Part shown: in pieces, positions 2,290 through 61,314 of the stretch
How positions within the stretch are numbered: position 1 is the stretch's first letter
Layout of the letters: each line of letters begins with the position of its first letter
Assembly: GCA_012932295.1 (NCBI GenBank)
Contig: JAAONU010000004.1
Coordinates: forward strand, 12,214,630 to 12,278,629
Direction: 5' to 3'
Length of the DNA stretch: 64,000 nt
Source: Cyclina sinensis
Taxonomy: Eukaryota; Mollusca; Bivalvia; Venerida; Veneridae
Position numbers and translations under genes: made by a program
Notes under the pieces: generated by a model
What the model was told of the DNA's origin: nothing
Seen by the model: only the letters and a program-made list of their open reading frames with translations
Database searches by the model: none

Positions 2290-2487
2290 TTTAAGGTATG
2301 GGAGATCATAGTGCAAGAAACAGAAAGCATCCCATTCCAGAGTCACCCCTGGTTCTTTTCCATGCTCAGTGTGTAGTACTGATACATTTAACCTTCATTT
2401 AAGATCTCATCTGACAGTTAGTAATGTGAGTGGAGGAGCGGGGATCAAACTCACAACCTCTCACATTACCACTAGACTAAAGATGCT
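2290..2487 (-). repeat. tRNA-derived SINE, copy 1
   Basis: Read on the minus strand, the sequence starts with an A-box-like GTCTAGTGGTAATG, followed by a B-box-like GAGTTTGATCCCC. A conserved body follows with the words CACTGAGCATGGAAAAGAACC, GACTCTGGAATGGGATGC and TTTCTGTTTCTTGC. The same body follows similar boxes near 26.8, 49.6 and 53.9 kb, so this is a dispersed SINE family and not a functional tRNA. Its 5' end directly abuts the tandem-core element that follows. Exact ends are uncertain. Confidence 0.7.
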
Positions 2488-2488
2488 C

Positions 2489-3402
2489 TTGTTATACCCC
2501 CGAAACGAAGTTTGGGGGGTATATAGGAGTCACCCGGTGGTTGCTCATTCAGGTGGTCGGTCTGTCCGTTCGTTGTCCGGAGCATAACTTGAAAACTAAT
2601 GGTTGGAATTCAATGCAACTTCATACAGTGGTCAAGCACAATGACAGGAAGTGCATTGTTCAAGAATCATAACTCTATCTTCACTATTTGCACAGTTATT
2701 GCCCTTTATTGGTTTTCCTTGTCCAGAGCATAAGTTGAAAACTACAGGTTGGAATTTTGTGCAACTTCATACAGTGGTCAAGCACAATGACAGGAAGTGC
2801 AGTGTTCAAGAATCATTGTACTAGTTATGCTCCATCTTCACTATTTGCACAGTTATTGCCCTTTGTTGGTTTTCCTTGTCCGGAGCATAACTTGAAAACT
2901 AATGGTTGGAATTCAGTGCAACTTCATACAGTGGTCAAGCACAATGACAGAAAGTGTAGTGTTTAAGAGCTATAACTCCATCTTCAGTATTTGCACAATT
3001 ATTGCCCTTTATTGGTTTTCCTTGTCCGGAGCATAACTTGAAAACTGCTGGTTGGAATTCAATGCAACTTCATACAGTGGTCAAGCACAATGATTGGATG
3101 TGCATTGTACAAGAGCTATAACTCTATTCTTCACTATTTGCAGAGTTATTGCCCTTTTGTTGGTTTTCCTTGTTAAGAGCATAACTTGAAAACTTATGGT
3201 TTGAATTCAGTGCAACTTCATACAATGGTCAAGCACAATGACAGGAAATGCAGTGTACAAGAACCACTATCTTTAATTGCCTACAACCATTACTCTATTT
3301 CAATTCTTTTACAAAGTATTCTGTTACTAATAACTTCCTCAGTTTCGAAGCAGTCTTTCGGGGGTATTAATCACATTTAGTGATAGCTCTAGCTCCTGTT
3401 AT
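2489..3402 (+). mobile_element. Tandem-core element, 5 units of about 146 bp
   Basis: The 5' end is a hairpin (TATACCCCC, a short loop, then GGGGGGTATA). A TCTGTCCGTTCG stretch follows, then five tandem cores beginning near 2575, 2721, 2878, 3024 and 3172, each opening with a form of GTCCGGAGCATAACTTG. The 3' end, ATTTAGTGATAGCTCT before CCTGTT, resembles the end of the element at 15.5-16.3 kb. There is no transposase frame, so it is non-autonomous. The layout fits the bivalve pearl / Helentron-associated class, though family assignment is inference. Confidence 0.7.
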
Positions 3403-4375
3403 TTTTAATAACTGTGTAGTTTATTATTTAAGCACTGCTTCAATATGGGACCTTGAGTTACCATTCTGAGAATGTTAACACTTTTTACATACACATGTCA
3501 GCGGCAAGTGTTTTGTTTTTGTCTGGGTTTTTTTTCTTTGCTATGGGGTTGGGCTGTTATTGTTAAACAGTAAAAAAAAGTTTGAAAGATTTCAGTTTCT
3601 TAATCAGCTAATTGAAAGAAAAAGCACATCTCAAGTTCAGTGGATCAGGGATTTTTCTTTTTTTTTCATGAAAAAGTGTAATTACAACAAAATGACAGAT
3701 TGAATTGTCACTACATCACACTTGACTGTGCAGTTCTGACAACCAAGGTTTAATACCTAGTCAGTCCACAGATAAAGCGAAATATCTGACATGGCTGTCT
3801 GCTACCACGTCATAGTTATAGTACCCACAAGAAAAGGAAAATTGAAACTCTCCGACTTTATTTCTTCAACATAATTTCAGAAACTTTTTCCGGCATGAAT
3901 GATAAATCAATCAGGAAAACATTCATCATTTTCTTTTATTTTTTTGTCGTATATTCATAGATTTATTACCTAAATTTGTTACAGTGTTAAGAATGTGTTA
4001 CATGAATTAGATAAACTGCAAAATATACTGATATTTACAGAATGAGCATTAGTCTTATCTTTGTTAGGTCATCCATCAAAACAAATTTATCGGCAGACTT
4101 GAGGCGCTGAATTTGAAATATTTTATAGATAAAGAATCTTGAAACATATGCTTTTGCAACAGGCTGTTTTATCTTTCAAACTCAAACAAGCATTCAAGAC
4201 TTGATGTCATTCCAAATCTGTTCTTTTTTATGCAATATCTTTTCACCTTGCAAGACATTATATTATTAGTATTACATTTAGTATGAAACGGTCACTGTAC
4301 CCTTAAAAAAAGCTTACTTCTGCAGTCTGAGATAGAGATGAAATTGAAGTCCTCAGTTCCATATAAGACTTGTAA
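3403..4375. other. Non-coding, nothing recognised
   Basis: AT-rich DNA with a few homopolymer runs. No exon, hairpin-bounded element or clear tandem repeat was found. Confidence 0.5.
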
Positions 4376-4610
4376 ATTATTATTCCCCCCACCCCCACCC
4401 TTCAAAGAAATAGGGTATATTGGTTTGCAGTAGGACCTATAGTCCTCAGATTTGGTGGACAGGTTGGCCACAACCTGTAGATGACCCATATAGATTTTGA
4501 GGTCAGTTGGTCAAAGGTCAAGGTCACATTTAGAACTTCATGTACATTGTAACAGGAGTAATTGGTTGCAATTAGTGGGGGGCATATATGTTTCACAAAC
4601 ATCTCTTGTT
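4376..4610 (+). mobile_element. Short dispersed element with hairpin 3' end
   Basis: The right end is the hairpin ATGTTTCACAAACAT followed by CTCTTGTT, nearly identical to the end of the element at 27.8-28.3 kb. The interior phrases CTCAGATTTGGTGGACAGG and GTTGGTCAAAGGTCAAGGTC are typical of tandem-core units, but only about one unit remains. The left limit is approximate, placed at the C-rich stretch near 4383. Confidence 0.5.
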
Positions 4611-4682
4611 ATAATTTAGCCTTTCATCTTCCTGAAGTCATAATACCAGTAGTTTGGGTATGTACAGACTGTGATTAGAACC

Positions 4683-5347
4683 GGGGGGGGGGGGGGGGGG
4701 GGGGGGGGGTACTTGAAAAATTTTTGGCGGGGGGGGGTTCGGATAGAGGTCTTAAACCCCGACCCCATTGTAGACTACTTTTTCCTGAATACGCAACCCC
4801 ATCGTAGACTTTTTAGGCATCTTAGAAACCCTATTGTAGACCAACATGCAAAATCATACACCCCTTTTTCAGGTGTTTATACATTTATATCATAAAATTT
4901 TAAGACAGTATGAAGCATAATTTTATTTTAACAAGATAAATTAAGACGTAAACTCAATGACAGTCCTTGCTCTCATGGACCGCCTTTCACCACTTTCTTG
5001 TCTGGGTGGTGCAGATGTTATTTCCTGCTGTGCAATACTTAGAGATTGTGATAAGGGATGTAATTTATATAATAATTATGAGATAAGCTCTAAATAACAG
5101 GGTATTGTTATAATCCAATAAAGATGCTGACCTGCTATGAGTAAGATTCAATTACAACCCCATGGTAGAATTATCTTTGCTAATTATAACCCCATTAGAG
5201 ACTAGATTTTACAGACCCCTTCAGAGACACAGTAAAAATGACATACCCCATTGTAGACAAAAATATGAAAAAAATACCCCCGTTTGTCAGAACCTCCCCT
5301 AAACCCAATATATAGCAAGTGCCCCCCCCCCCCCCCCCCCCCCCCCC
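4683..5347. mobile_element. Element bounded by poly-G / poly-C inverted ends
   Basis: A run of 27 G (4683-4709) opens the interval and a run of 26 C (5322-5347) closes it. Inward of both lie matching inverted sequences: on the left TACTTG, then a G-run and GGTTC; on the right strand CACTTG, then GGGGAGGTTC. Inside, a motif close to ACCCCATTGTAGAC recurs at about 4762, 4796, 4827, 5157, 5189, 5215 and 5244, spaced roughly 26-34 bp in two clusters around an AT-rich centre. No coding capacity is evident. I do not recognise the family. Confidence 0.5.
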
Positions 5348-10800: not shown

Positions 10801-11140
10801 GTTAATTACCATTTTGATAATACATGTTTGTGCCCGAACTATTGAATTTTGAGTATTAATCCGCTTTTATAATTAAAGTATGTATGGCAAAATTCAATAG
10901 ATATTGATAAACTGTGTAGACAAAAATAAATATTATTTGATGAAAGTGTATTGAGTTTATTTCAGCAGAAGTAAACTTATCATATGTATTGGAGATTGTC
11001 TGCACTTTTTTTTGTGCGGAGTAACCAAAGTACGCATTAACTGGTTTGGGGCTCACCATGGGGAATTTATTGAAGGCCCTGATTAAAAATGTCATAAAAA
11101 AACCCATTTTTGACGTGTTGGCATAAAATAAAAAGAAAAT
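7820..11140. other. Non-coding; degenerate repeat at 8640-9010, microsatellite near 9726
   Basis: Most of this span holds nothing recognisable. Between 8640 and 9010 the phrases ACCATTGTGTAATCTGCTG, CACCTTCTGTGTGACTCTGG and AATCAAGCAG recur two or three times about 120-150 bp apart, suggesting an old decayed tandem repeat. An ATT-rich microsatellite lies at about 9725-9752. Confidence 0.45.
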
Positions 11141-11290
11141 TTGTTTGTTTTTTATTGGAAGATGGGAATTTATTTCATCTCGTGAACACCATATGTTGAT
11201 ATTTTCACTCGTGGCTGCGCCACTCGTGACAATATCACATATGGTGTTCACTCGATGAAATAAATTCTCATCTTCCACAAAAACAAACAA
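11141..11290. repeat. 150-bp near-perfect palindrome
   Basis: The two halves are near-perfect reverse complements around a TGC loop (11216-11218), flanked by GGC and GCC. The outer arms are TTGTTTGTTT and AAACAAACAA. Few mismatches are visible, e.g. GATGGG against CTCATC. The minus-strand frame of 169 residues crossing it has no protein-like character. It may be a foldback MITE or the hairpin core of one. Confidence 0.75.
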
Positions 11291-12956
11291 ATATCCTCTA
11301 TATGATATATAACATGGGTAAAATGTCATTTTTGATGTATCCAGGTTTATTAGACAAGATATCACTGTTATCTCCTTCCTGAAAGCTCATTTAGTGCTTT
11401 GATTTTGGATTACACTGGTTTGATTGCTATGCTTAAAATTTAAGCTGAAGTTTTTTGGGTGGGTTTTTTTTGGGGGGCGGGTAAAATTGTGACAATGAGA
11501 TTAAACTGTATCTTCTAACAGATCAAAGTTTGGGTTATCTTTTTGTGACAGAGCTAGCTACCATTTTAATTAAATGATTAAGTGATACCATACAACTAGA
11601 AGAATTCTACTTATGGAGACAAACTATTGGAATTTTACTTATGGAGACAAATTCATTAAGAATTCTACTTATGGAGATGTACTTGAAAAATTTCAGCAAG
11701 AACCTGGCTATTTCTTTCGCTTCAGTGTTCATTTTTAAAATGTTTTTTGCATCAGTTTTATAATTATATATTTCATAACAATAGCTAAAGAAATGTTTAC
11801 CAATCTGGAAGCAGTGCATTCATGTTGAAAACACCCATATTATGATATTGGAAATATAAGATTCCATTATTTAGTTAAAAATACCCAAATGGGCAACATG
11901 AACATGAATAAGAATGGAGGTAATTGTGTCTTGTAGAATCGAATGAGGTGACATTGTCGAAGGGTAATATCAAGTATTATCTTACACTTCACAGGGTCAA
12001 TAAAATATGACAGATTTGTAAGTTTTATGTGTCTGCTGATACTGCTTACTGAAAGGGCAGTCCTTGGTTTTGTAAAGGATCATAATTCTTTCGCAACATT
12101 GACGTTACCAGAAAATGTTCTTAACAATGTTTATCTGTCCCTCTATATATAAGTTTTGTTTTTTTCTAATCATTAAAACCTTTATCCTTAATGTTTATTA
12201 AAAGGCTATACCATATTGGTTTGATAAAAAAAATTGTTTTGATTTGTTTGGAGATAATCACAGAAGTCACGTACAATTCTGAACCTGGTGTCAGAAATGT
12301 ATTGTTTGAAAGATATTTGATAACACATATACGTATTAACATTATTTAGCAAATGATACTTAGTTCAGTAATATCTTTCTGTAGTTAATTAAGGACTTAA
12401 TTGATAAAGTATAGGATAAAATTGCACAATCACATTGCTCTCTGTAGTATGTATTTATTCAATTCTTAAACAAAGACACAAACACAACCAGATATATTCC
12501 GAAGTTAGGTTTTGGTGGTATAAGTAATAGAAAACATGTTTTTCATGGATCTTTTCCCTAGAAAAGATGTGAGTGCTGTAAAACAAGCTATCCAGCTAAA
12601 GTGTATAAAAAGAGCTTTATTTCCAGGAATTAAGTCACAGGTGTTGTTTGCATTATTTTAGGAACATTTCGTCTGGAAGGATTTTTTTTTATATAAAAAT
12701 GATTTCCATACTCCTGAACATTCTTTTCTAGGTAAGTAATAAATCATAATTAATACAAGATACAACCTAGCTTTTATCAACACCTTAACCATGTTATCTT
12801 AATGTTTGTATTTCATAAGTAGTCCAATTAGAAAAACATGAATTGCAGACTAATCCTAGGTCTTAGTACCTCTCCCAGTGGTTTTCTCTCATAATTCTGG
12901 TTGTTTTGATTGACAGCCTGTTACTTGAAAAACAGACTACTTTGTGAATCATTGTT
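11291..12956. other. Non-coding; 28-30-bp triplication at 11603-11680
   Basis: AATTCTACTTATGGAGACAA recurs at 11603, 11631 and 11661 with minor changes, a three-copy tandem repeat. The remainder shows no exon or element that I can support. Confidence 0.5.
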
Positions 12957-17244: not shown

Positions 17245-19077
17245 TGATAAATCAATTTTGAAAATTAATTTGAAAAAAACAAAACAATATATACTCATTA
17301 CTAATCATTTATAGAAAAATTGAACAATGAAGAGAAAATAAGGGAAGAAGAGAGCATTATTCAATCCCTCAACTGCATGTACTCTGCTGGTGTTAATGTT
17401 ACATCATATGAGTATGTTTGCAAATTTCTTGTCTCAGTTAGAGGTTAAAGCCTGTGGCTTATCAGTATCTTTAGACTACTCCAGACCTTCCTCAGGGTAC
17501 ACTTAAGTTACTCATTTATTGAATAAATAGGATTTTTACATCATTTCCCATGTTTTATCTGAGTACGCACAAATATATTCACATAAGTGTACTTATATTA
17601 CTAGCTAAATTACAGAGATTACAATCTCTGAGTAGTAGATACTGTTCATCTTGTGCGAATGGAATAGAAAATAAAATACTTGCATTATCTTCACACACAT
17701 TGACTCTATAATTATAACATTTATTTAAAAATTTTTAGGAAGTTTTTTTTTTTGACATTACAGACTAAGCTGTATTAAAATCAATTTTGACCTGCATTTG
17801 TAATGTATGAAATTGTTAGATAAATATCTTTAGCTAAAGGAAGTCATCTATCAGTTAAATTTTAGGGCAGAATTTGTAATTGTTAGTTTAATTGCATCTG
17901 AAAATAATGCAATAATAATAACATTAATACAGCCGTAAATTAAATATCAAAATGTTTTAACCATGAAATATTATACTAAATGGAATAAATATGTAATAAA
18001 TATGACTAAATATTTAATTTATTTCATTGAAAATGATATTGACACTTTTAGCATTTAACTTAACATTTTTGTTAATATCCTAAATGCTGTTATATGGAAA
18101 TAGGACATTCCATTACTCTGTGCTTTATCTTTTGCCAGTGTCTGAAAACTATATACTTATATTGGGTGTTTCACTGATCATCTCTTCTAAAGATATTTCT
18201 TGTTTTTGATGAATTCTAACTGTTCACATATTGTTATGACAGCTACAGAACTGGAAAAAGTGGGACTGGGTTGTTGCCTGTGCTGAGGAAGTACCTTGGG
18301 AGCATAATTTTCAGAAAATCTTAAATAACTTTTCATAGTAATTCATCACATTGTATCACAACCCTGTCAAAATAATGCTCCGATTCAATATAAAACAATG
18401 TTTATTTTCAACGGTTATCTTTTTGTATGCAGTTGCATACCTTTTTTCCAGAACATGGTAACCAGAAAGGTAACTGTGATACTGAGTCAATATAAATAGT
18501 ATTCAATTACAATGTCTCTAAACAGCTGTCATTGATCACTACTTTGAAATGCAACTAATTGTCCACAAGGTATTAGCTTATCATACTCTCAGTCCTGTAA
18601 CATTGTTTATTCAGTTAATTGCATTCAGTGCAGTTTACAGCAATATATTTCAATGAATTATTTATTTTAATTATAGAATAATGGTTTTTTAGTCTACATA
18701 AAAAACGGGAAATGCATGATTGTGCATCCCCTGTATAGGTGTTTTTTTATGTCATTAATATAAATATTTCATGAAAACTCTCATATCTAATTATTTGAAA
18801 TATTTTAATAACAACACAGTCTTGACAGAATTTCAGTAATCAAATTAAATATTTGCAAGATGGCAAAAACTTTATTTCAATATTTGCTCAAAGAAACCCT
18901 GATGAAATATGCCATGAACTACCATGGTAAACCACAAGTATAGTTCATGGTTGTGAAACCTATCAGCTATGCAGATGTGAAACTGAGTACCATAGTTTGG
19001 GTAATACAGATATGTTTATGACATTCTAGTCAGATACCATTGTACACTTACATGATATTCACCTTAAACCATCTAAG
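17245..19077. other. Non-coding, nothing recognised
   Basis: AT-rich DNA. ACCATGGTAAACCACAAG and GTTCATGGTTGTG phrases near 18.92-18.96 kb resemble words of the following minisatellite but do not form an array. Confidence 0.45.
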
Positions 19078-19485
19078 TTCATGTTGTGAGGCAGTGGACA
19101 ACCATGAAAGTTCATGTTATAAGACAATGGACAACCATGAAAGTTCATGTTATAAGACAATGAACAACCATGAAAGTTCATGTTATAAGACAATGGACAA
19201 CCATGAAAGTTCATGTTATAAGACAGTGGACAACCATGAAAGTTCATGTTATAAGACAATAGACAACCATGAAAGTTCATGTTGTGAGACAATGGACAAC
19301 CATGAAAGTTCATGTTGTGAGGCAATGGACAACCATGAAAGTTCATGTTATAAGGCAATGGACAACCATGAAAGTTCATGTTGTGAGGCAATGGACAACC
19401 ATGAAAGTTCATGTTATAAGACAATGGACAACCATGAAAGTTCATGTTGTGAGACAATGGACAAGCATGAAAGTTCATTGTATAA
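19078..19485. repeat. 33-bp minisatellite, 12 units
   Basis: Units of exactly 33 bp begin at 19078, 19111 and so on to 19441, followed by a partial unit. The unit reads TTCATGTTATAAGACAATGG then ACAACCATGAAAG. Because 33 is a multiple of three and units vary only by substitution, several frames stay open on both strands (174 and 78 codons on plus, 145 on minus). There is no splice context or non-repetitive flank, so I do not call a gene. The 13-bp word TACCATAGTTTGG occurs on both sides (about 18990 and 19498). Confidence 0.9.
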
Positions 19486-19530
19486 AAACACATCATGTAC
19501 CATAGTTTGGTTGTTCATGTTATTTTTTTT

Positions 19531-22256
19531 TAGCTCACCTGAGCATGCTCATGTGAGCTTTTAGGATCCTTGATTGTCCGGTGTCCGTCCGTCCGTCCGT
19601 CCGTCCGTCCGTCCGTCGTCCACAATTCATTCAAACGACATCTCCTCTGAAACCACTGGGCAAAATTGAATGAAACTTGCCTAGAATGTTCCTTGCATGA
19701 AGCTCTACCAAGTTTGTTCAAATGGTTCCGGTTCATTGCATTTCTGGGTCACATGAGCTAAAAACAGATTTTAAAAGTTGGATCTTTAAAAATCTTCTTG
19801 TCAGAAACCACAAGGCCTGGAGCTTTGATATTTGGTATAAAGCATCATCTAGTGGACCTCTACCAAGTTTGTTCAAATCATGGCCTCTGGGTCAAAAATG
19901 GCCCCGCCCCAGGGGTAACTTGTTTTACATAGAGTTATATAGGAAAAACTTTAAAAATCTTCTTGTCAGAAACCGTAAGGCATAGAGCTAAGATATTTAG
20001 TGTGAAGCATTGTCTAGTGGACCTCTACCAAGTTTGTTCAAATCATGGCCTCTGGGTCAAAAATGGCCCCGCTCCAGGGGTAACTTGTTTTACATAGAGT
20101 TATATAGGAAAAACTTTAAAAATCTTCTTGTCAGAAACCGTAAGGCATAGAGCTAAGATATTTAGTGTGAAGCATTGTCTAGTGGACCTCTACCAAGTTT
20201 GTTCAAATCATGGCCTCTGGGTCAAAAACGGCCCTGCCCCAGGGGTAACTTGTTTTACATAGAGTTATATAGGAAAAACTTCGAAAATCTTCTTGTCTGA
20301 AACCACAAGGCCCTGAGCCTTAAGATTTAGTATGTAGCATTGTCTAGTGGACCTCTACCAAGTTTGTTCAAATCATGGCCTCTGGGTCAAAAATGGCCCC
20401 GCCCCAGGGGTAACTTGTTTTACATAGAGTTATATAGGAAAAACTTTAAAAATCTTCTTGTCAGAAACCGTAAGGCATAGAGCTTAGATATTTGGTATGT
20501 AGCATTGTCTAGTGGACTCCTACCAAGTTGGTTCAAATTATAGCTCTTGGGTCAAATTTGGCCCAACCCTGGGGTCATTGGTTTTACATAGGCTTATATA
20601 GGAAAAACTTCGAAAATCTTCTTGTCTGAAACCACAAGGCCCTGAGCCTTAAGATTTAGTATGTAGCATTGTCTAGTGGACCTCTACCAAGTTTGTTCCA
20701 ATTATACCCCTGGAGTCAAATTTGGCCCCCCCCCCCCCGGGGTCATTTGTTTTACATAGGCTTATATAGTGAAAACTTTGAAAATCTTCTTGTAGAAGGA
20801 GAAGTAACATTTTCAGTCCAAATAATCTGGAAATTTGTCAGACAGGTTGTTTCTATGATTTCTAGCTCAAGTTCGAATATGGGTCATCTTGGTTCAGAAA
20901 CTAGGTCACAGAGCCCAAAAATAGAAAAACCTTGTTAACAATCTAGAGGTTACATTTTCAGTCCAAATATCCTGGAAATTTGTCAGAAAGGTTGTTTTGA
21001 TGATTTTTAGCTTAAGTTTAAAATTGGGTCATCTTGGGTCAAAAACTAGGTCACAGAGCCCAAATATGGAAAAACCTTGTTAACACTCTAGAGGTAACAT
21101 TTTCAGTCCAAATAACCTGGAATCTGTCAGAAAGGTTGTTTCAATGATTTCTAGGTTAAATTTGAATATGTGTCATCTGAAATCAAAAACTAGGTCACAG
21201 AGCCAAAAAATAGAAAAAAACTTGTTAACACTCTAGAAGCTACTTTTCAGTCCAAATATTCTCGAAATTTGTCAGAAAAAATGGTTTAATGATTTCTAGC
21301 TCAGATTCGAATAAAGGTCATCTGGGGTCAAAAACTAGGTCACAGACCCCAAATATGGAAAAACCTTGTTTACATGCATTGGGGTAACATTTTCAGTTCA
21401 AATAACCTTGAAATTTGTCAGAAAGATTGTTTTAATGATTTCTAGCTCAGTTTTGAATATGGGTTATGTAGGGTCAAAAACTAGGACACAGGGCCAAAAA
21501 GTAGAAAATACTTGTTAATGCTCTAGAGGTTACATTTTCAGTCCAAATGTCCTTGAAATTTGTCAGAAAGGTTGTTTCAATGATTTTTAGCCTAGATTAG
21601 GATATCGGTCATCTGGGATCAAAAACTAGGTCACAGAGCCCTAAAATGTAAAAACCATTTTAACACTCCAGAGGTTACATTTTCAGTCCAAATATCCTGG
21701 AAATTTGTCAGACAGGTTGTTTTGATGATTTCTAGCTCAAGTACTAATATGAGTCATCTTTGGTCAAAAACTAGGTCACAGAGACCAAATATGTAAAAAA
21801 CCTTGTTAACACTCTAGAGGCTACACTTTTAGTCCAAATAACCTGACAGTTTGTCAGAAAGGTTGCTTCTATGATTTCCAGCTCAACTTTGAATATGGGT
21901 CATGTGGGGTCAAAAACTAAGTCACAGAGCCTAAATATCGAAAAACTTTCAGTCCAAATAACCTTGAAATTTGTCAGAAAGATTGTTTCAATAATTTCTA
22001 GGCCAAGTTTGAATATGGATCATCTGGGGTCAAAAACTAGGTCACAGAGCCCAAATATGGAAAAACCTTGTTAACACTCTAGAGGCTACACTTTCAGTAC
22101 AAATAACCTTGAAATTTGTCAGAAAGATTGTTTCAATAATTTCTAGGCCAAGTTTGAATATGGGTCATCTGGGGTCAATTAACCAGGTCCATAGCAACTT
22201 TGTTAAAAGCAGTCATATTCAGGTGAGCGATATAGGGCCATCATGGCCCTCTTGTT
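19531..22256 (+). mobile_element. Largest tandem-core element, two core types
   Basis: The 5' hairpin is GCTCACCTGAGC with GCTCATGTGAGC (19532-19559), followed by a perfect (TCCG)n run at about 19583-19618. A first core series of about 164 bp (AATCTTCTTGTCAGAAACC, TAGTGGACCTCTACCAAG, TTCAAATCATGGCC) fills about 19.79-20.80 kb. A second series of about 145 bp (TTTTCAGTCCAAATA, TTGTCAGAAAGGTTG, CAAAAACTAGGTCACAGAGC) fills about 20.81-22.19 kb. The 3' end is AGGTGAGCGATA, hairpin GGGCCATCATGGCCC, then TCTTGTT. There is no transposase; it is a non-autonomous element. Confidence 0.8.
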
Positions 22257-28810: not shown

Positions 28811-28876
28811 ATAACTTTACACAGATGACACAGGTTTAAGAATCAGTGCTGTATATTGTCAGCCACCTAGACCAAA
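28811..28876 (+). other. 5'-UTR part of receptor exon, with a 4-codon uORF
   Basis: The exon start is inferred from the pyrimidine-rich acceptor ending CAG at 28808-28810. Within the 66-nt leader, ATG at 28825 opens a minimal frame (Met-Thr-Gln-Val-stop, 28825-28839) that ends 37 nt before the receptor start codon. Confidence 0.5.
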
Positions 28877-29770
28877 ATGACGCTTCCAAACTTCCACAAT
28901 AAAACGACAACAACAACTTTTCTCACTGAGGAGACAAACTTTTCAAAGGAAGTCTTCAACACTTCGGATCACTTTGAAATGCGATCATGGAACGTCTTAG
29001 AAAAAGCTATTTTTGGAACTTGGCTGACGCTATCAATGCTTTGTGCAATTTTTGGAAACTTAATGGTTATAGTTGTTGTCATACGGCACAAAGGGATGCA
29101 GACTCGGACTAATATGTTTCTTGTTAATTTAGCAATAGCCGATTTCCTTGTCGGTATTTTACTAGCCCCATTTTCTTTAACAACTTTGATAAGTGAGAAA
29201 TGGATATTTGGGGAGGTTATGTGCAATGTAAATGGTTTTCTGAATGCTGTATGTTTTATTACATCTATTCATACGCTTATGTATATAAGTATTCATAAAT
29301 ATGTCTCAATTACAAGGCCATTTAGTAGAATTCTAAATCGCTGGAAAATTCTGGTTATGAGCTTTGCAGCCTGGTTGTGGGCCATAATTTGTGCCATATT
29401 GACTATGTTTGTGTTAAGCAAAGTTGTCTCGAAACCTGGAGCCATGCAATGTGGCCCTGAATATCCCAAAAATGATTTAGAGTATCTGCATCATGTGATC
29501 ATAACAGGATCAAATATTCTTATACCTCTGGCAATTATGACATTTGCTTACGCACGTATGTATTGTGAATTTAGAAGTCATGCAAAAAGACTTCGTAAAA
29601 ACACAAGTTTACAAACAGACCAAATTTTAGCGCAACAAATTCAAGTAACAAAGACGCTGTTTATAGTGTTGGCATGTTTTATGCTCTGTTGGTTGCCGTA
29701 TGCTGCTTATTCTTCATATGTTTCTACTATAAAGGACAAGTCTAAGATCTTTGCATGGGCAAACCCAGCT
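28877..29770 (+). CDS. Class A GPCR, coding exon 1 (residues 1-298)
   Basis: This exon encodes the N-terminus through the start of TM7 of a seven-helix receptor in the plasma membrane. The start sits in a good context (AAAATGA) after an acceptor. Three N-glycosylation sequons (N8, N21, N28) precede TM1. Landmarks: GN in TM1 (G60-N61), LAIAD in TM2 (D89), ECL1 WIFG (109-112), Cys116 and Cys192 as the likely disulfide, TM4 Trp, Pro217 in TM5, and CWLP in TM6 (271-274). The amine-binding Asp of TM3 (3.32) is Asn123, so a classical monoamine ligand is not supported. The DRY motif reads His140-Lys141-Tyr142. Intracellular loop 3 is short. The exon ends at a GTAAGT donor (29771) in phase 0. Reading through the intron would add 35 residues and a stop at 29878; I treat that as unspliced sequence. 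The family beyond class A orphan is not resolved. Confidence 0.9.
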
Positions 29771-30462
29771 GTAAGTAAAGGCATTCACTTTGTTCCTTTA
29801 CTGTTATATAAATTGAAACATATCTATTTTACCGCTATTGATAAACGAGTTCTTGCAACTTACATTGATCTCCACTGATTACAGCTTTTTGAATTCAAAC
29901 TTGTACTTTTGCTAAAAGTGTTGACCACAGAAAGTCACTGAATAACTTCACCCAAGGTGGGGTTCAAACTATAGACCTGCTGATATGAAGTTCCGAGCTT
30001 CATCCCTTTCAACCACTTCTCTTGTACTCTTGTTTAGATAAAAGTGTTTGCTATCTGAAGCTGTTTTAGGAAGAAACTGTAAATGTCTTATAGGTCATTG
30101 TTGAAAAACTATATGAAATGCAGTGTTTATTTTGTCATTTTCATTGAATTAGTATCTTGTTAGGAGAACTAATTAAACATTCAGTTAAAAAAGCAGATTG
30201 CAACAAATATGAAGAAACTTGAATATATATCATATCACTTCTAAAAAAAAAAGTCAATGTATAAAGTCAGGCATTTGGCTCAAAAGAAAAATTTTGGTTA
30301 TAATTTGTCAACTAGGTTAATTGTGGTAAAGTGACTACTGCTCAGAATACAAAACAAAACTGTCTGATAGTCATAAAAAAGAAGTCTTTACAATCAACCT
30401 CAAAATTTGTGAAGGAAATAAGCCTTAACTGAACTTCTTTTGTTTTTCCTTCTGTTTTCCAG
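29771..30462 (+). other. Receptor intron 1 (692 bp, phase 0)
   Basis: GTAAGT donor and TTTTCCAG acceptor. The splice joins ...WANPA to AYCFMYMNSGCNPIIY, completing TM7. Near 29945-30030 the minus strand shows a weak tRNA-like pattern (GTGGTTGAAAGGG, then AGTTTGAACCCC), perhaps an old SINE. Confidence 0.8.
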
Positions 30463-30901: not shown

Positions 30902-31877
30902 AGCCACTAAGAATATTATTTATTTATTTATGGTATCTGATAATAAGTCTAAAATTAAGAGAAAGGTTCATATGGTACCAGTTACGATAAAACCAATCTC
31001 TAGAGAGAAGAGCCAGTAAATATACAACTTTTTAAGTACCTATTACTGCATATTTCAATGCATCGTTGCCACTATCTCTCAGTGTAAATTACCATATCTT
31101 CAGATGCTGCCAGTATAGGTGGGGGTTGTTGCCATTGAATTTTTTAGTTAAATAATTCATTCATGACACATATGATAAATAGAAATAGAAAATAAAAAAG
31201 TGATAGGATTAGATAGAGATATCTAATTCTGTGAACATTTAACTTGTCTGTCTGAAATATGCCTGTTTATACCTCAAGTTATTATCCTTTTGCTCTTGAA
31301 TTGAATTGATTTATAATTTAGATTTGTATTGAATTGATTTTTGTTTCTTTCTATTTATATTGAATTGATTTTCACCAGAGAGTTTAGGACAAAAACCTTC
31401 CATCTCCCAGTGATTTTAACCAAGGTGGACAAAATCCTTTCTGAGATTATTCAAGATAGACAAAACCTGGTGCTTTTTGTCACCTATGTGAAAATCATGA
31501 GCAGTAGAGGTTTTGTCAGTCCCCGATTGTCTGACAAAACTCTACATTATAGTAAAGTAAACAATGAAATTCCAGACATTTGTAAACTGCAAACTGAAAT
31601 AAAAAAAAATCATACTGTTAGGAAAGAAAATTTATTTATCCCATCATTAATTACCGTGAAATTTAGGCCTAATACAAGATAAGAGATAGAGTTGTTTGAT
31701 CTTCAACGAAGTAAGTATGCAAGTCTAAACATGAGAAAAAGATGTTTCCTTCACAGCGTACCTGATGGCACTTATGCTTAAATTGCACCTGCAAGAAGTA
31801 TGAACAAGTAAATAAAGTGGCTAAAATAGTAATTACTCTTCTCTGTAATATGATTGGTTCTGTCATGAGTGGTGTCT

Positions 31878-32670
31878 GTAGGGATCAGTGTAAACTATTG
31901 TATAAGGCCATATTGTGTGTAGGGATCAGTGTAAACTATTTATCAGGCCATATTGCCTGTAGGGATCAGTGTAAACTATTGTATCAGGCCATATTGTGTG
32001 TAGGGACCAGTGTAAACTATTGTATAAGGCCATATTGTGTGTAGGGATCAGTGTAAACTATTTATCAGGCCATATTGCCTGTAGGGATCAGTGTAAACTA
32101 TTGTATCGGGCCATATTGTGTGTAGGGACCAGTGTAAACTATTGTATCAGGCCATATTGTGTGTAGGGATCAGTGTAAACTATTGTATCAGGCCAAATTG
32201 TGTGTAGGGATTAGTGTAAACTATTGTATCAGGCCATATTGTGTGTGGGGACCAGTGTAAACTATTTATCAGGCCATATTGCCTGTAGGGATCAGTGTAA
32301 ACTATTTTATCAGGCCATATTGTGTGTAGGGATCAGTGTAAACTATTTATCAGGCCATATTGCTTGTAGGGATCAGTGTAAACTATTGTATCAGGCCATA
32401 TTATGTGTAGGGATCAGTGTAAACTATATATCAGGCCATATTGCCTGTAGGGATCAGTGTAAACTATTGTATCAGGCCATATTGTTTGTAGGGATCCATG
32501 TAAACTATTGTATCAGGCCATACTGCCTGTAGGGATCAGTGTAAACTATTGTATCAGGCCATATTGCCTGTAGGGATCAGTGTAAACTATTGTATCAGGC
32601 CATATTGCCTGTAGGGATCAGTGTAAACTATATATCAGGCCATATTGCCTGTAGGGATCAGTGTAAACTA
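31878..32670. repeat. 40/41-bp minisatellite, about 20 units
   Basis: The unit runs GTAGGGATCAGTGTAAACTA then TTGTATCAGGCCATATTGTG. Units of 40 bp (TTTATCAGG, ATTGCCT) and 41 bp (TTGTATCAGG, ATTGTGTGT) often alternate, so a pair is 81 bp, a multiple of three. This keeps frames of 75-102 codons open that spell repeated CRDQCKLLYQAI-like peptides. These are products of the repeat and not a gene. The array ends in a fragment of the piggyBac-like MITE. Confidence 0.9.
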
Positions 32671-32748
32671 TAGTATGGAGTGCAGGCTGATCTACGCCTA
32701 CACTGGTTGTTAAAACAGAGTCAGTTGCCTTCAGCAGGTTTGGGTTAA
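32671..32748 (-). repeat. Truncated piggyBac-like MITE end
   Basis: On the minus strand it reads TTAACCCAAACCTGCTGAAG, then GGCAACTGACTCTG, ACCAGTGTAG and GATCAGCCTGCA. This parallels the left part of the copies at 17.05 and 57.6 kb. The minisatellite replaces the rest of the element. Confidence 0.5.
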
Positions 32749-45800: not shown

Positions 45801-47506
45801 AAAGGGGTGAGCGCAGGTATAAAACAAAAGATATCCAAGTGTATCTTATCATCTCCTTTAGTGTGGTGGTGGGCAACTTCAGTTCGAACCATAGTGAATA
45901 TTGGTCGCACTAAAACTCTGGTTCATCCACAGTCCAGTTACTCTGTCATAAGTATTGAAAACTTAATAGAATTAGTTTGTCCAATATGTCAACCATGGTC
46001 AGATCTCGATATCACCGGTACATCACAGCTGAACTCTAGTTGATATTTGGACCACCTTAGTATGAGTTACCACGTTGACCTACGATCCATACTATCAGTG
46101 GTATAAACCGAGTTTTTAGCACAACTGTAGTCACTATGGATTTTGTTCGAAGTGATGTTCTATATCACCTCATTCATCAGCATGTGTAAACTTGTACAGT
46201 CGTTTTAACATAATGACATTTATGCATTTGACATTGGCTGCTAATGGAAACCGTTTGATTTTTAATTTATCCATTTGTCGGGTTATCAAATCTGGATACC
46301 ACTGACTTATTCACCATTCAGTTCTTTTCGTTTAAATAACAACAATGCAGAGATATATGAGAGAAAGTTAAAATTTCATTAAAAACTGACTGTAACGGGA
46401 CTTGATTGAATAGAGATGTGCAGTGTCTGTAATCCAGTATGTATTGTAAGCCTGGGAACTGTTAATTTCAATAGACTCCAAGCATGTGTTGTGGTCATGA
46501 TGAAAATTTTCAAGCATGTTTTAGGGGTTGATGAGCATGGTTTTATAAATGACAGTTTTTCATTATCTATTATTTGAGGTTCATATTTGCTGTTTGGAAG
46601 TTATGCTTGATAAAATGATGAATCTTGTCTGCAGATTAAAAACGTTACTCATGGTTATTGGTATAATGAAAACTGTTATTTTGTTTTTGCCTCGAAGCTT
46701 GATAATTATTGTATTTTTTTTATGAATACATTAAATTAATGAGGATGAAATTTAGAAACAAAGTTCATTAATTGACATCACTTTTATTACATGTACCAGT
46801 ATTTCAATCATGGATCATCCATTACTATTACATTTTCATGAAATTCTGTTTCTTAGAGTGTTCTTATTACTTAGATATAAATATGAGATAGATTAAATTC
46901 TTGTATAAATCATAAGGTTCAATGTAAAACAACATCATTACTGTTTGTGTTTAATTCTATTTGTGGGGAACCTTTCAATAATTGAGCTCAGCTGTGTGAA
47001 ACTGTACCATTGCACTGTGTGCTTTGATATTTCATATTTTCCTCGGCTCAGGAACCTGACTATTTTTTCAGCTTTAAAGGAAAACAGTTTAAAAAGAAAA
47101 CAAAATTTTATACACAATTAGCTCCAAAGATACTACAAATGTCAGACAGTACATTAAATAGGTACCAGTTTCTCACAGCCAGGCTCTTTTTTGTCAGTTT
47201 GTTTCATCTGAAAGGAGTAAAAGTTATGTAACTATTTCTATGCTATAATGCATATTTATTTCTGAACTATTGTTTTGTTGGAAACATATCTTCCCAGAGG
47301 TCTTTGTGGCTTTTAAAAATCAATTTGTTTTTTAAAAATTAAAAAATAAAATGTAATCTTGCAAGTCAAATTTGTCGAAACAGGATTATATATTGAACAA
47401 ATCATGATAAAATGAAATAAGGATATAGGATGAAAACATTTTTTGTCTGCTCAGAACTTTTGCTAGGGACAAAAGATATATTACAAAAATGCTATTCTGT
47501 GCAATG
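42877..47506. other. Intronic; 34-bp duplication at 43797-43864, otherwise nothing firm
   Basis: ATGCCATCATAGTATGGGGG, then TGTATTTAG, is present twice in tandem at about 43797-43864. A 114-codon frame at 45699-46043 starts with a Gly-rich segment and has a GTGAGC donor-like site after it, but there is no second line of evidence. A GGGTATTCATCACCCATAG phrase near 45025-45050 resembles the worn end of a tandem-core element. Confidence 0.4.
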
Positions 47507-48760
47507 GTTATGGCACGCCAATTGTCCAATTATTACGTGAACCTATGTTCGTAAAACTAGGATTTACGGTCGATAATCTAGGTTTTTCAAACGTAAAACC
47601 TAGTTTTTCGATTTTTAACCTCTATTTTCGAGCATAAACATAGGATAACGGCCGTAAACCGTAGTTTACTCTTGTGATCTTATGATTACGTTCGATAAAC
47701 TAGGTTTCTCAAATAATATTATAATTTCGTTCGTTATCCTAAGATTACCACCGTAAACTTGGGTTTGCGACCGTGAACATAGGTTTATGACTGTAAACCT
47801 ATATTTACATTCATAAATTCATATTTTTTCTCAGTAACTTAGTTTATCAAACATAAACCTAGGCTCATGTCCGTAAACTATGGTTCACGACCGTTATCCT
47901 ACGTTTTTGCTCGAAAACACTAGTTAAATTCCGTAAAATACGGAGAAGTCAACTGTCCAAAATGGTGAACCTATGTTTACGCCCGTTAATCTAGGATTTA
48001 CGATTGATAAAACAGGTTTTTCAATCGTAAAACCTGGTTTTTCGAATTTTATCCTATAATTACGAGCGTAAATATAGGATAACCGTCGTTAACACTAGAT
48101 TACGCTTCTGAACCTATATTTACGTTCAATAAACTAGGTTTTTCGAAACAATTGTAACTTAGGTTTACGAACGTGAATGTACATTTACAAGCGTGAACTA
48201 TGGTTCTCGACGTTATCCCATGTTTTCGCTTGAAAAAATATGATAGCCAGTCATTAACCTATGATTACGATCGTAAACATGGGTTCACGGCCGTGAATGT
48301 AGGTTCACGCTTGAAAACATAGGTTCTCGATCGTAAACACATGTTAAGGCTCGAAATTCAAGTTTGATTTCATAATCCTGAATATCGAATGTAAACCATA
48401 GTTTACGATTGATAAACTCGGTTTTTCAATTAAACAACGGATTTCAACCGTTATCCTATGTTTACGGACACTATCTTATTGTTACGCTCGTGAACCCCGG
48501 TTTACGCTCGTAAAAGATAATTTACAAATGTAACCTATATTTTCGACCGTAAACTTGTGTTTTCAAACGTGATCGATCTATGGTTTACGAGCGTAAACTA
48601 CGGTTTACGACATTAACCCATGATTTTGCTCGAAAATATAAGTTAATATTCGAAAAACTAGGTTTTATGTTTGAAAAACCTGGTTTATCAACCGTAAATC
48701 CTAGTTTTTTTGCCGTAAACATAGGTTCACGTAATAATTGGACAATTGGCGTGCCATAAC
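47507..48760. mobile_element. Hyper-palindromic foldback element with perfect 43-bp TIRs
   Basis: The ends are perfect inverted repeats of 43 bp (47507-47549 and 48718-48760), starting GTTATGGCACGCCAATTG. If the target duplication is TA (47510-47511 and 48755-48756), the element proper starts TGGCACGCC. The interior is almost entirely degenerate 20-22-bp units related to the palindrome CGTAAACCTAGGTTTACG. I count 10 GTAAAC and 8 GTTTAC half-sites. A worn internal copy of the terminal region (AACTGTCCAAAATGG then TGAACCTATG) sits at about 47951-47977, giving a higher-order period near 428 bp. CpG is plentiful against a CpG-poor background. There is no transposase. I do not recognise the family. 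Confidence 0.85.
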
Positions 48761-49448
48761 TGGTTGTCAGACTTACCCCCATTTTCAGAACTGCATTTCA
48801 ACTAGTGTATATATAGGGCGTGTGAGTCTTTAGATACCCCAGATACAGCAAAAGATCATGAAATGCAGATATCACAGTGTTGTTTTGCACTTAAGTTCAG
48901 CATCTGTTTCTAGAATTCTTGCTCATTCAGATGAAATTACCTTAGCAGTATTGTAGAACTTTCAAATTGTTTGCTGTTTTCAGCTTCATCTATATTGTCG
49001 TTCCATTTCAGTTTTTGACATGTGACTCAGTTTGTAATCTTCTTCCTGTCACATGGTACAGTTTTATTTTACATCCTGTTCCAGGTTATTGTTGTTGTAG
49101 CATGTCTGTTGTGGTACAGATTTTAAGCATGTTTGTATTATTTATTGTCGGTATAGTTTCTGTTATGATGGTTTGCATATTTACCTGTTATTTATGTGTC
49201 TTTCATTGAAGCAACAAAAAAAGTGAACATGAGCAGCTGTAGGAATTGTACATGAGGTTTTATTGATTAATTGAATAAATTTATTATTGTTACATCAGCA
49301 TGTTGGGTTACAGAGGTGATAGTGTTGTAACTAACTGTTTCTGTATACTTCTTCAGTTAAGTTACTGAAACAAATAATAATTTAAGCTGTCACATACTGT
49401 TACACTTTACAAGTTACAAAGCAGTTAGAAAATATATATAACAAGCAG
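48761..49448. other. Intronic, nothing recognised
   Basis: AT-rich DNA. An 80-codon hydrophobic frame at 48967-49209 lacks a plausible splice or start context. Confidence 0.4.
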
Positions 49449-57529: not shown

Positions 57530-59322
57530 GATCACCTGAGCCCATTGTGCTCATGTTGATCATTTGTGATCACCCTTTGTCCATTCTGCATCAGTGCCTT
57601 AACCCTTAACCTGCTGGAACCGAAAGTGATTAGCCTTTGCCACCAGTATAGAGCCAGGCCAGCCTGCACATCCGTGCAGTCTGACCAGGCTCTATACTGT
57701 TGGTAGCTCCATTTTTGTATTTTAGTATTGAAATCCCTTTGAATGGACTGTTCCAAATTCAAAAGTGGACAAATCCATTACAAAATTTCAGGATGTTCAG
57801 GGTTAAGCATTGTCCATTGTCAGCTACTTCATTAAACATCATCTCCTCCTAAACCATTTTATTAGAGTTAATGAAACTTGACAAGGATGTTCCTTGCATA
57901 ATTCTCTACCAGATTTCTTCAGAGAAGTTGATTCTGTGCAGAACTCTGGTTGCTATGGCAAAGTCTATAAAAAAAACTTTAAGATTTTCTTGTCTAAAAC
58001 CAGATAGCCCACAACATTGCTATTTGTCTGATATGATTGTCTAGTCGAGCTCTACCATGATTGTTCAGATTATGTCACTGGGATCCCTAATGGCACCACT
58101 TGAAGAGTAACATTTATAGAGATGTATAGAAAAACATTAAAAGTTCTTTGGTCTTACATATGTCCCTGGAATCACTATTGGCTCTACCACATGGGTCACT
58201 TGCTTAGAAGCAAATAAAATTCAAAAATCTAACCATTATCTCCAAATGTCCTAAATTTTCCTTGAAACATTTTTCAAATGTTAACCCTGTGTCATTTAAC
58301 AACCTACTCCACCTCATGGCTCAGATGTTTGATATAGACTTATACAGCCCAACTCTGTAATTCAATAAAAGAAATCTTCTTTCAGAAGGGTGTGACTTAA
58401 GAACTTTGGTTTGTAACACTGTCTGTATAGTGAATCTGTACCAAGATTTTACAAAATTTGCCCATGGGGTCATTTTTGGCTCAACCCTCGGGGTTCAGAT
58501 GTTTTATATTGAAATATATATGGAAATTTCTAAAACGGTTCTTGTCTGAGACCAGAAGGCTCTGTGTTCTAAACCTTGCATGAACCTTTGCCTTGTGGAC
58601 CTACACCAAGATTGCTTAAATTTTGCCCCTTGCGTCATTTATTTGTTATTTAGCTTTACCAGGGTGTGGAGATAATTTTGAAATATAATAAAAACATTTT
58701 AGTCTTACTGTCTGACACTATAAACCTAGGGCTTTGAAATTTGACATATAGAATTTTCAAGCAGACTTCTACTAAGATTATTCAACTTTAGGTCCTGAGT
58801 CAATATTGTCACTGCTCAGGAGAGGGAGATTGCATGATTTACATAGAAATATGTAAGAAAACCTTACCTGAAACTACAAGGCCCCAGCAGAGCTCTGAAA
58901 TGTGGCTTGTCTGGTAGACTACTACAAAGATATTTCAAACCTTGCCCCTGGTGTCATTACTGGCTTCAGATGTTTTACTAAGTGTTATACAAAGAACAAT
59001 AAGATTGAGTTACTGAAAAGTGGTGTGTACCATTGTCTCTTAAGCCTCTGTCAAAGATTGTTCAGATTGTGCTCATCGGGATATTTTTTGCTCCACAATT
59101 GATGGGGGTTACAGGTTGTGCAAAGAAATATATAAAAATATATTTAAAACTTTTTTTCATAAACCAGTGAATCGCCTACATCTTTGATACTGGCATGCAG
59201 CTTGTCTAGTTCTTAATTATATTTTGACTATATCCCCATTACATTTCGCTTGTCATTTTGAGCAGGTGTATACTGTATTGTATACTCAGGTGAACAATTT
59301 AGGGCCATCATGGCCTTCTTGT
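57530..59322 (+). mobile_element. Tandem-core element interrupted by a MITE
   Basis: The 5' end GATCACCTGAGC with GCTCATGTTGATC can fold. Degenerate cores carry CTTGTCTAAAACCAGA, TCTACCATGATTGTTCAGAT and similar phrases. The 3' end is TCAGGTGAACAATTT, hairpin GGCCATCATGGCC, then TTCTTGTT. A separate MITE lies inside at 57603-57802. The body is the same family as the 19.5-22.3 kb element but more diverged. Confidence 0.65.
57603..57802 (+). mobile_element. piggyBac-like MITE, 200 bp with TTAA flanks
   Basis: TTAA lies at 57599-57602 and 57803-57806. The terminal inverted repeats are CCCTTAACCTGCTGG and, on the reverse strand, CCCTGAACATCCTG. TTAA flanks directly followed by CCCT are the hallmark of piggyBac-type insertion. 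The interior holds a hairpin built on AGTATAGAGCCAGGCCAGCC and its partner GACCAGGCTCTATACTG. It is inserted in an older tandem-core element. Related copies are at 17.05 kb and, in part, 32.7 kb. Confidence 0.75.
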
Positions 59323-59860
59323 TTCTTTCTGTCTTTGCTATTGTTTTAACTTGAGTTTCTGTTAAGTTTTTATTTCAGTGATTGAATTTATCACTATCTT
59401 TATCTTGATAGTTATTTTGCATTTGTACAAGGTGAAAATTGTTTTTAAAAATGTGTTACAGACACAAAAAATATATCCAGTCAGCTTTAAAATCTGTTTG
59501 TTGTGTTCATATATTATCGGTTATTGTAAATTCACAATGGTGTTTTTCTTTTAATTTTCGTTTTACTTATAATTTAACATTAAAAGTCATAAAATCTGAT
59601 AAGTTTTTTGTTATTTTGCCCTTTAATTAATGAAGCTGGTTATTGATTCAGATAAATGGTTGACAAATTTAATCTCGAATCTGATTTTGATGCAGTCAGT
59701 GAAGAGTTAAGGTTCCAAAAGGTATATTAGATTTACCAGTACCTTTGTATTATTTTAAAACAAGACACGAATGCTTAATTGATTGATAATACTGTCAAGA
59801 CAAATGTGATAGTTACAGTAATGCCTTGATTGAGGACCTGGTTACAGTATATGTTATTTG
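59323..59860. other. Non-coding, nothing recognised
   Basis: AT-rich DNA without a supported feature. Confidence 0.45.
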
Positions 59861-59980
59861 GGTTTTTGAGTGATATATGTGGATATATTACCTGCTAAGA
59901 TTTTATATCACCCGAGCCGATAGGCGAGGGTGATATTTTATCTTGGCAGGTAATATATCCACATATATCACTCATAAACC
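59861..59980. repeat. 120-bp near-perfect palindrome
   Basis: Arms of about 58 nt (59861-59918 and 59923-59980) surround a GATA loop, with few mismatches. Outer words are GGTTTTTGAGTGATATATG and CATATATCACTCATAAACC. Weaker complementarity extends some nucleotides outward. Size and plan resemble the palindrome at 11.1 kb, although the sequences differ. Confidence 0.8.
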
Positions 59981-61314
59981 TAAATTATAATTTTATTACC
60001 CTTCCCCTGCCGAGAAAGACGATTTTAAAATTAATCATTGCTGTTTTAAATGAAACGTCGAAATAAGATTCCCTTTAGGGTACCCCTACACCTCAAAATG
60101 ACGTCACAACATAATTTGTGCTGGCGAAAAGCGGTATTTTCCCAGAAGTGATATGTTTGTTTGAATATTAAATTTATATCTTTAATGAAAGCCATAAATT
60201 TGGGTTAATATTTCCGCGCATTCATTACAGATTATTTTCTTAAACTTTTTTATATTTTTATTTCAATAGTTCGTCTATAGATCTACATGAAATATTTGCT
60301 TTCGTACCTAACGAATGTAAACAAGAGAAAAGGAGTAGTCTGTTGAAGAATTAATATCAAGGTTTGGCGAGGTCATATTTGTTTCAAATACTACTGAGAA
60401 TATTTATCATTACTCTATTTTGGTATATATATCTTATTTGCCAATTAAAAAGTGTTTGTATATCGGAATTTACACTTTACAACATCGAACCGTACGCGCA
60501 TCGTCACAGCGCATGTTGTTTACTATGTGGGGTATCCAAAGGGGAAATTTAATGTGTATATTACCTGTCTGGCTCGGTAATATCAATTCCTTTCGACGGA
60601 TCAATAGCCAATCAAAAAGGAGAAAAAAATCTAGAAGGGCAATAAACATTTCTAATAAGATGAAGAGGCACTGCCTTATAACAAAGTCCAAAGAAGCGAC
60701 ATGTATATTCAGTTTTACTTTGCAGGTCTTTACAAACTATTTTTTATTTTCTTCAGACGAGCCCTCCTATAGGTCATTATCAGACTGTCGTCAGATATGC
60801 ACATCTGATCCATTCGATCCTTTCATGTTTTATTCATAGTATACTGGAATGTTAGGGTAGTAAGAACCTTGGGGGTCCGACAAGAGAATGGTTGTGCAAA
60901 TTGTCAAAATATATATGCATAGAGACTTGGACCATCTCCTTAAAAAATGAACGATTCTCATGCATGGAAGCTTTTAAACTTCTAGTATTTCTTTAGCTAT
61001 TATTTTCACAGAGAATCGAAGATGATACTTAATAATAACAAGGAAAATATAAAAAAAATGTACAAATACAGCCATTTAGTTTCGTCCAACAAGAAGCTAC
61101 AAACACAAATAGTTTTTTTGGATTAAACCACTTAAACGATAAATTCTTTTTTTTAGTATTTTCAGACAATTAAAAAGATTACTGTTTAAAAACATGCTCC
61201 ATATACACAGAAATACTTGTATGTAGAATACGCCACCGAAGATATTTCCTTTTTCAGAACACCACTGGTTACTTTGCAAGAAGAACTAAAGGTGCTGTGA
61301 TGAGTTTTTTTGTT
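59981..61314. other. Non-coding; CRE at 60099-60106
   Basis: A perfect TGACGTCA lies at 60099-60106. Frames of up to 139 codons (60420-60839) have no protein-like signature or splice support. CpG is somewhat higher at 60.0-60.6 kb than in the surroundings. Confidence 0.4.

Follow-up and report, generated by a model that had tools for sequence, protein, structure and literature searches.

A foldback-like element of worn palindromic 20-bp units, tentatively read as an array of transposase-binding sites

What kind of element consists almost entirely of one short palindrome, and what might the repetition serve? The question is raised by an element of ~1.25 kb at 47507-48760 of the window, the 64-kb stretch of DNA analysed here, in which a palindromic motif of 20 bases recurs ~58 times in worn form between inverted ends. 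Judged from its sequence, the proposal that it is a non-autonomous, foldback-like DNA transposon, made up mostly of an array of putative dimer-binding sites that probably serve its own transposase, is close to evenly balanced, with a slight lean towards doubt. The features on which this proposal is based were observed directly, namely inverted ends, lack of a long open reading frame, modular arms, and conservation of a dyad-symmetric unit that persists after duplication of the module.

The outermost 43 bp on the two sides are exact reverse complements enclosing 1168 bp, and the perfect terminal inverted repeats of the original prediction were thus found at precisely the coordinates given there (Table 1). 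The 21-base tip had no second copy within the 64-kb window when up to three mismatches were allowed. No stop-to-stop frame of at least 110 aa overlaps the element, and 15 frames with a length of 40 aa or more touch it, the longest measuring 70 aa, in line with the earlier statement that no protein is encoded. With this longest frame and three copies of an end module, the element is modular and has little or no coding capacity. None of the Rfam families reached its gathering score in the 64-kb window, the nine matches with E values up to 1 in 47300-48960 all being far below the family cut-offs, and the tRNA search found none. A BLAST comparison of the rest of the window with the element gave a best E value of 0.065 among the 20 matches listed. 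Two classes of repeats are ruled against by the ends. Simple satellite arrays run head to tail without bounding inverted ends, whereas here 43-bp inverted ends with non-unit tips bound the array. Helitrons and Helentrons (HINE) are not known to have long terminal inverted repeats, and here the inverted ends are perfect over 43 bp.

Table 1. Coordinates in the window of the parts of the element and of the possible target-site duplication
Feature	Position	Strand	Remarks
Left terminal inverted repeat	47507-47549	+	Perfect 43 bp; outer ~29 bp not unit-like, after which the first unit begins
Right terminal inverted repeat	48718-48760	-	Perfect 43 bp
Left end module (extended inverted arm)	47507-47711	+	~205 bp; inner boundary approximate
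Right end module, inverted	48555-48760	-	Inner boundary approximate
Worn end module inside the element	47941-48147 (approx.)	+	Orientation of the left end; decayed non-unit terminus at ~47946-47963
Unit array	47537-48731	.	~58 recognisable 20-bp units, consensus CGTAAACCTAGGTTTACGAT; dyads at positions 9.5 and 19.5; A5/T14 near-invariant
Possible left target-site duplication AATGGTT	47503-47509	+	Lacks one base of AACTGGTT; shares GTT with the 43-bp repeat; by eye, suggestive
Possible right target-site duplication AACTGGTT	48758-48765	+	Overlaps AAC of the 43-bp repeat; by eye, suggestive

The element has a period of 20 bp (self-match 0.46 at lag 20), with a start-to-start spacing of 21 bp in the first three and the last three steps of the array. 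The consensus of the units, CGTAAACCTAGGTTTACGAT, is a perfect palindrome around both dyads and alternates AAA and TTT runs at 9 and 11 bp. With up to three mismatches, the unit pattern was matched 29 times in the 64-kb window against 0.20 expected, and all matches fell inside 47633-48731. Fixed tiling with 18-mers recovered 52 units, while wraparound alignment with indels over 47537-48731 gave 60 rows with 15 deletions and 19 insertions; we count ~58 units rather than 60 because the row at the start is incomplete and a pair of rows covering a worn copy of the terminus (47932-47963) is unconvincing. Five single-base shuffles scored -317 to -390 and seven other stretches of the window -352 to -397, whereas this alignment scored +749. 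The palindromic nature originally attributed to the units holds for the consensus, which is self-complementary, but single units are poor palindromes today: centres with at least 7/9 palindromic matches number 18 in the element (14.4 per kb, against 3.7 per kb elsewhere), and only one centre in it has at least 8/9 (0.8 per kb, against 0.4 elsewhere).

A three-way alignment identified a module of ~205 bp that is common to the left end, the right end (as reverse complement) and an internal stretch. The inverted arms therefore reach well beyond the perfect 43 bp, to ~205 bp, with an identity that drops inward (43/43, 25/31, 36/40, 32/39 and 32/47 in successive segments, followed by 22/49 and 36/60 past the arm); as had been predicted, the ends are more alike and the interior is diverged. 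Internal duplication, also part of the original prediction, is borne out by a match of 164 nt at 81% identity and an offset of 434, the offset at the worn end itself being 428. Long inverted arms that consist of tandem units, here ~205 bp with units of 20-21 bp, are characteristic of foldback-type elements, and arms built of short repeats occur in FB of Drosophila and TU of sea urchin. The element also resembles the foldback element Tetris, described in the accessible parts of its paper as modular, with inverted arms of tandem repeats (PMC4079207), but differs from Tetris and other foldback elements in that the palindromic unit runs through arms and middle alike. The Tetris paper does not contain the word 'palindrom' (PMC4079207).

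Single strands of the element are predicted to fold far more stably than shuffled sequence. For the inner 1168 bp (47550-48717) the predicted energy was -227.8 kcal/mol, compared with -115.7 for shuffles (sd 8.0, n=40; z -14), and 20 other stretches had a mean of -110.9 and a minimum of -130.3; the region 47714-48554, in which the internal module is still included, gave z -9.2 against 60 shuffles. A dot plot against the reverse complement showed a dense inverted signal, with a density of 2007 in the element versus 86-252 in 15 other windows and 88-118 in three shuffles, a 16th comparison window (inverted density 807) having been dropped from this range because it overlapped the element. The direct density was 1845, which four of the 15 other windows approached or exceeded (1322 to 4670), as is expected where tandem arrays are present. 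The near equality of the inverted and direct densities in the element is required by a palindromic unit.

The stable predicted fold and the inverted density would suit a foldback transposon in which the units matter as structure, with strands or transcripts forming hairpins that drive replication, excision or the production of small RNAs. We consider this explanation unlikely, since any palindromic consensus would fold. When units were taken without gaps, the two halves of a unit matched at 5.0/9 positions, compared with 4.88/9 for halves drawn from different units (permutation p 0.22). As the ungapped 18-mers put 21-bp units out of register, a second comparison took the gapped alignment and those rows with 17 or more columns filled (57 of 60). 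There, the fit was 0.602 within units versus 0.580 between units (p 0.085), or 0.683 versus 0.661 with G-T pairs included (p 0.064), and in the 32 rows outside the modules it was 0.595 versus 0.556 (p 0.036), or 0.676 versus 0.643 with G-T pairs (p 0.054). This slightly higher fit within units is in favour of hairpins, but the excess amounts to only 2 to 4 points and is not significant on ungapped units, and is at most a weak sign that hairpins are maintained unit by unit. Accordingly, the multi-hairpin structure of the original prediction stands as far as the folding of the whole strand is concerned, and finds weak backing at most as a function of the individual units. The weak excess counts somewhat against the units being binding sites, or may reflect cooperative half-sites.

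How the units have worn is more informative. With every column masked in the alignment used to score it, as a guard against circularity, column 5 (A) was at consensus in 57/58 units and column 14 (T) in 56/60, the mean of the 18 columns being 0.69. In 200 simulations of neutral decay, which presume an initially uniform array and a single mutation model and were processed in the same way as the real array, the best column stayed at or below 0.87 and the second at or below 0.84; none of the 200 reached the best column, the second-best column or the column variance of the real array. The same two columns stand out both in units that lie outside the end modules (32/32 for column 5 and 30/31 for column 14; heterogeneity chi-square 58.7, df 17, p 1.7e-6) and in units inside these three modules (25/26 and 26/29). 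The dyad maps column 5 onto column 14, and the distance between them is nine bases, roughly one turn of the helix. Pairing leaves the resistance of these positions in particular unexplained, and wear that avoids two dyad-related positions points to a duplex site rather than a hairpin.

Alternatively, the element could be an ordinary MITE or foldback element with a captured minisatellite, whose units are neutral and whose conserved columns reflect heterogeneity dating from the formation of the array. Tandem arrays are common in the window (45 rows), and foldback arms with tandem repeats are already known, as the available text of the Tetris paper describes (PMC4079207). This explanation is nevertheless quite improbable, as the differences that arose between modules avoid the two columns as well. 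Among the three module copies, aligned with columns 5 and 14 masked, 0/16 sites in these columns were variable, versus 51/138 elsewhere (Fisher p 0.001), and the pairwise differences were 0/16, 0/17 and 0/18 there versus 32/138, 30/151 and 43/154 elsewhere; this test is not blind, the columns having first been spotted on all units including the modules, but the units outside the modules would pick the same ones. The kinds of changes also argue against neutral units. Interchanges of A and T make up 103/160 departures at A/T columns, against a simulated maximum of 29%, and their share is above that of each of the control tandem arrays of the window (6-44% in the 12 of 45 rows that passed a size filter), although these controls are younger (consensus 0.82-0.96), with some rows overlapping and some resting on few changes. 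Micro-inversion as the origin of the A/T changes was rejected, because changes between C and G are rare (7 in 236 cells at columns 7, 8, 11 and 12).

The variants themselves are symmetric: the variant profile and its reverse complement have a JS distance of 0.022 at the dyad versus 0.268-0.458 at 19 other axes, and outside the modules the distance at the dyad is 0.043, where exact symmetry predicts 0.017-0.052. We infer that the constraint on columns 5 and 14, together with the symmetric variants, is the trace expected of a symmetric dimer reading duplex DNA. The alternation of AAA and TTT runs could instead suggest an array maintained for its shape, in which alternating steps rich in A and in T, spaced ~10 bp apart, yield curved or nucleosome-phasing DNA. 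This is very improbable, given that A and T are frequently interchanged within the runs (columns 4, 6, 13 and 16), a pattern that would be expected to disrupt A-tracts, whereas A5 and T14 are almost unchanged.

For the binding-site reading, two well-studied transposons provide the closest models. In the accessible portions of the papers on Galileo, an element of the P superfamily from Drosophila, tandem repeats of the long terminal inverted repeats hold extra sites for the THAP domain of the transposase (PMC3688188), and these terminal repeats grow by repeat expansion and are accompanied by a target duplication of 7-8 bp (PMC3688188, PMC4168063, PMC3573991). The element shares with Galileo its long, internally repetitive inverted repeats (PMC3688188, PMC4168063, PMC3573991), but the tandem repeats of Galileo are ~140 or ~210 bp in length and number, in the accessible text, 2 to 9 per region, compared by description with the ~58 palindromic 20-bp units that take up the element here. 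Hermes, a hAT element, has paired subterminal motifs in a palindromic arrangement, and its BED domains are reported, in the text that could be accessed, to bind this palindromic pair cooperatively and with strict phasing, the target site being 8 bp (PMC10368747). Unlike the ~58 units here, the motifs of Hermes and hAT elements are few and lie near the ends. Taken together, the extra transposase sites of Galileo and the palindromic pair binding of Hermes lead us to take the array as putative transposase sites.

On this basis, the element would be moved in trans by a transposase; neither a transposase nor an autonomous partner was found within the window. A symmetric dimer would bind each unit as duplex DNA, and this protein would most probably be the accessory DNA-binding domain of the transposase itself, with sites comparable to the THAP sites of Galileo and the BED sites of Hermes. 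The array would concentrate transposase near the ends in large numbers, and the two contact bases would have been kept by selection over successive rounds of transposition while the other positions of the unit drifted. The arms would have grown via duplication of the end module, and folding of the strand would largely be a by-product of the palindromic unit. Constraint that is seen both in old units and after copying of the module would be natural if it acts at each move of the element. The same constraint data fit with a non-autonomous transposon whose array binds a host protein (a chromatin, replication or transcription factor) to the benefit of element or host, and nothing marks the protein as a transposase; we nonetheless regard this alternative as improbable, since constraint after module duplication would be explained most easily by selection at each transposition. 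Returning to the transposase reading, a more far-reaching form of it is possible but doubtful, namely that the transposon has been reduced to a binding platform that comprises, besides two short tips, ~58 dimer sites, each with dyad symmetry, arranged in phase. Every site would then be selected at two contact bases, and the element would compete for transposase through the number of its sites. If the binding-site reading is correct, it would bear, from sequence alone, on the standing question of what the long repetitive arms of foldback elements do: constraint within units would mark the repeats as sites rather than ballast, and the array would give a predicted 18-bp ligand for finding the transposase.

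Assignment to a transposon superfamily was considered from the tips and flanks. At the strict boundary of the 43-bp repeats, the flanks have only TG (2 bp) in common, whereas TGGTT is common to them when the boundary is allowed to slide; an offset match of at least five bases occurred in 1.8% of 20,000 random flank pairs. A gapped reading by eye, AA[C]TGGTT, would yield symmetric 40-bp ends and an 8-bp duplication minus one base, the chance rate covering only its TGGTT part. As a target-site duplication, in this single copy, it is only suggestive. The same candidate, by eye, in one copy and with one base missing, would be the one to set against both the 7-8 bp duplication of the P superfamily and the 8-bp duplication of hAT elements. 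The YARNG type of tip typical of hAT elements is not seen here, the tips being GTTATGG or ATGGC, depending on which of the two boundaries is taken. A TA target duplication was rejected, as it is trivially present in any inverted repeat that contains TA. KolobokP of bivalves, a lineage of DNA transposons that occurs in Veneridae and in other molluscs, likewise has repeated ends according to the accessible text (PMC9587614), but Kolobok elements make TTAA duplications and the long terminal repeats of KolobokP are direct. The TTAA duplication of Kolobok and piggyBac is not present in the flanks, which read ...GCAATG and TGGTTG.... Since only one copy was seen, mobility is deduced from the ends alone.

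Searches for further copies were made in viral or prokaryotic collections, so that misses say little on copies in bivalves. In viral contigs, an exact 23-mer of the end and two unit-pair patterns had no matches, and a 15-mer of the end occurred at 41 loci with at most 28/43 end positions matched, a figure that includes the 15 fixed by design; we judged these loci to be chance matches rather than copies of the element, only short BLAST matches being among the 20 listed. An 18-mer of the end likewise had no matches, nor had one end pattern and one unit-pair pattern in genome contigs. A match of 33 bases to a phage record (E 0.1) was also judged to be chance. A 16-base piece of the end and the 12-base centre of the unit were absent from the literature text that was searched, and none of the literature matches listed presented an element composed of arrayed 20-bp palindromes, as far as titles and the openings of abstracts tell.

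The bivalve host assumed in the original prediction fits the only gene recognised for this purpose, and is probable from that one gene. The open frame at 28871-29878 (335 aa without a stop) encodes a putative rhodopsin-family receptor (Pfam 7tm_1), whose nearest named proteins are from Mactra antiquata (84% identity) and Mya arenaria (74%), each alignment covering 79% of the query; a further database record had 81% identity over 90% of the query.

Elsewhere in the window, an array of 33-bp units spans 19022-19564 (12.7 copies with 92% matches at 19067-19485) and has open frames on both strands; its unit contains CATGAAAGTTCATG, which is itself nearly palindromic. Two adjoining arrays with units of ~165 bp and ~145 bp occupy 19784-22178, the second with longer periods of 291 and 436, and a 41-bp unit is repeated ~20 times with 91% matches at 31873-32676. 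Inverted repeats with short loops, possibly remnants of MITEs, lie at 59856-59985 (arms of 63 nt, 87%), 57640-57703 (30 nt, 87%) and 11123-11310 (74 nt, 77%). Finally, a run of 27 G (4683-4709) and a run of 26 C (5322-5347) are located ~610 bp apart in inverted relation.
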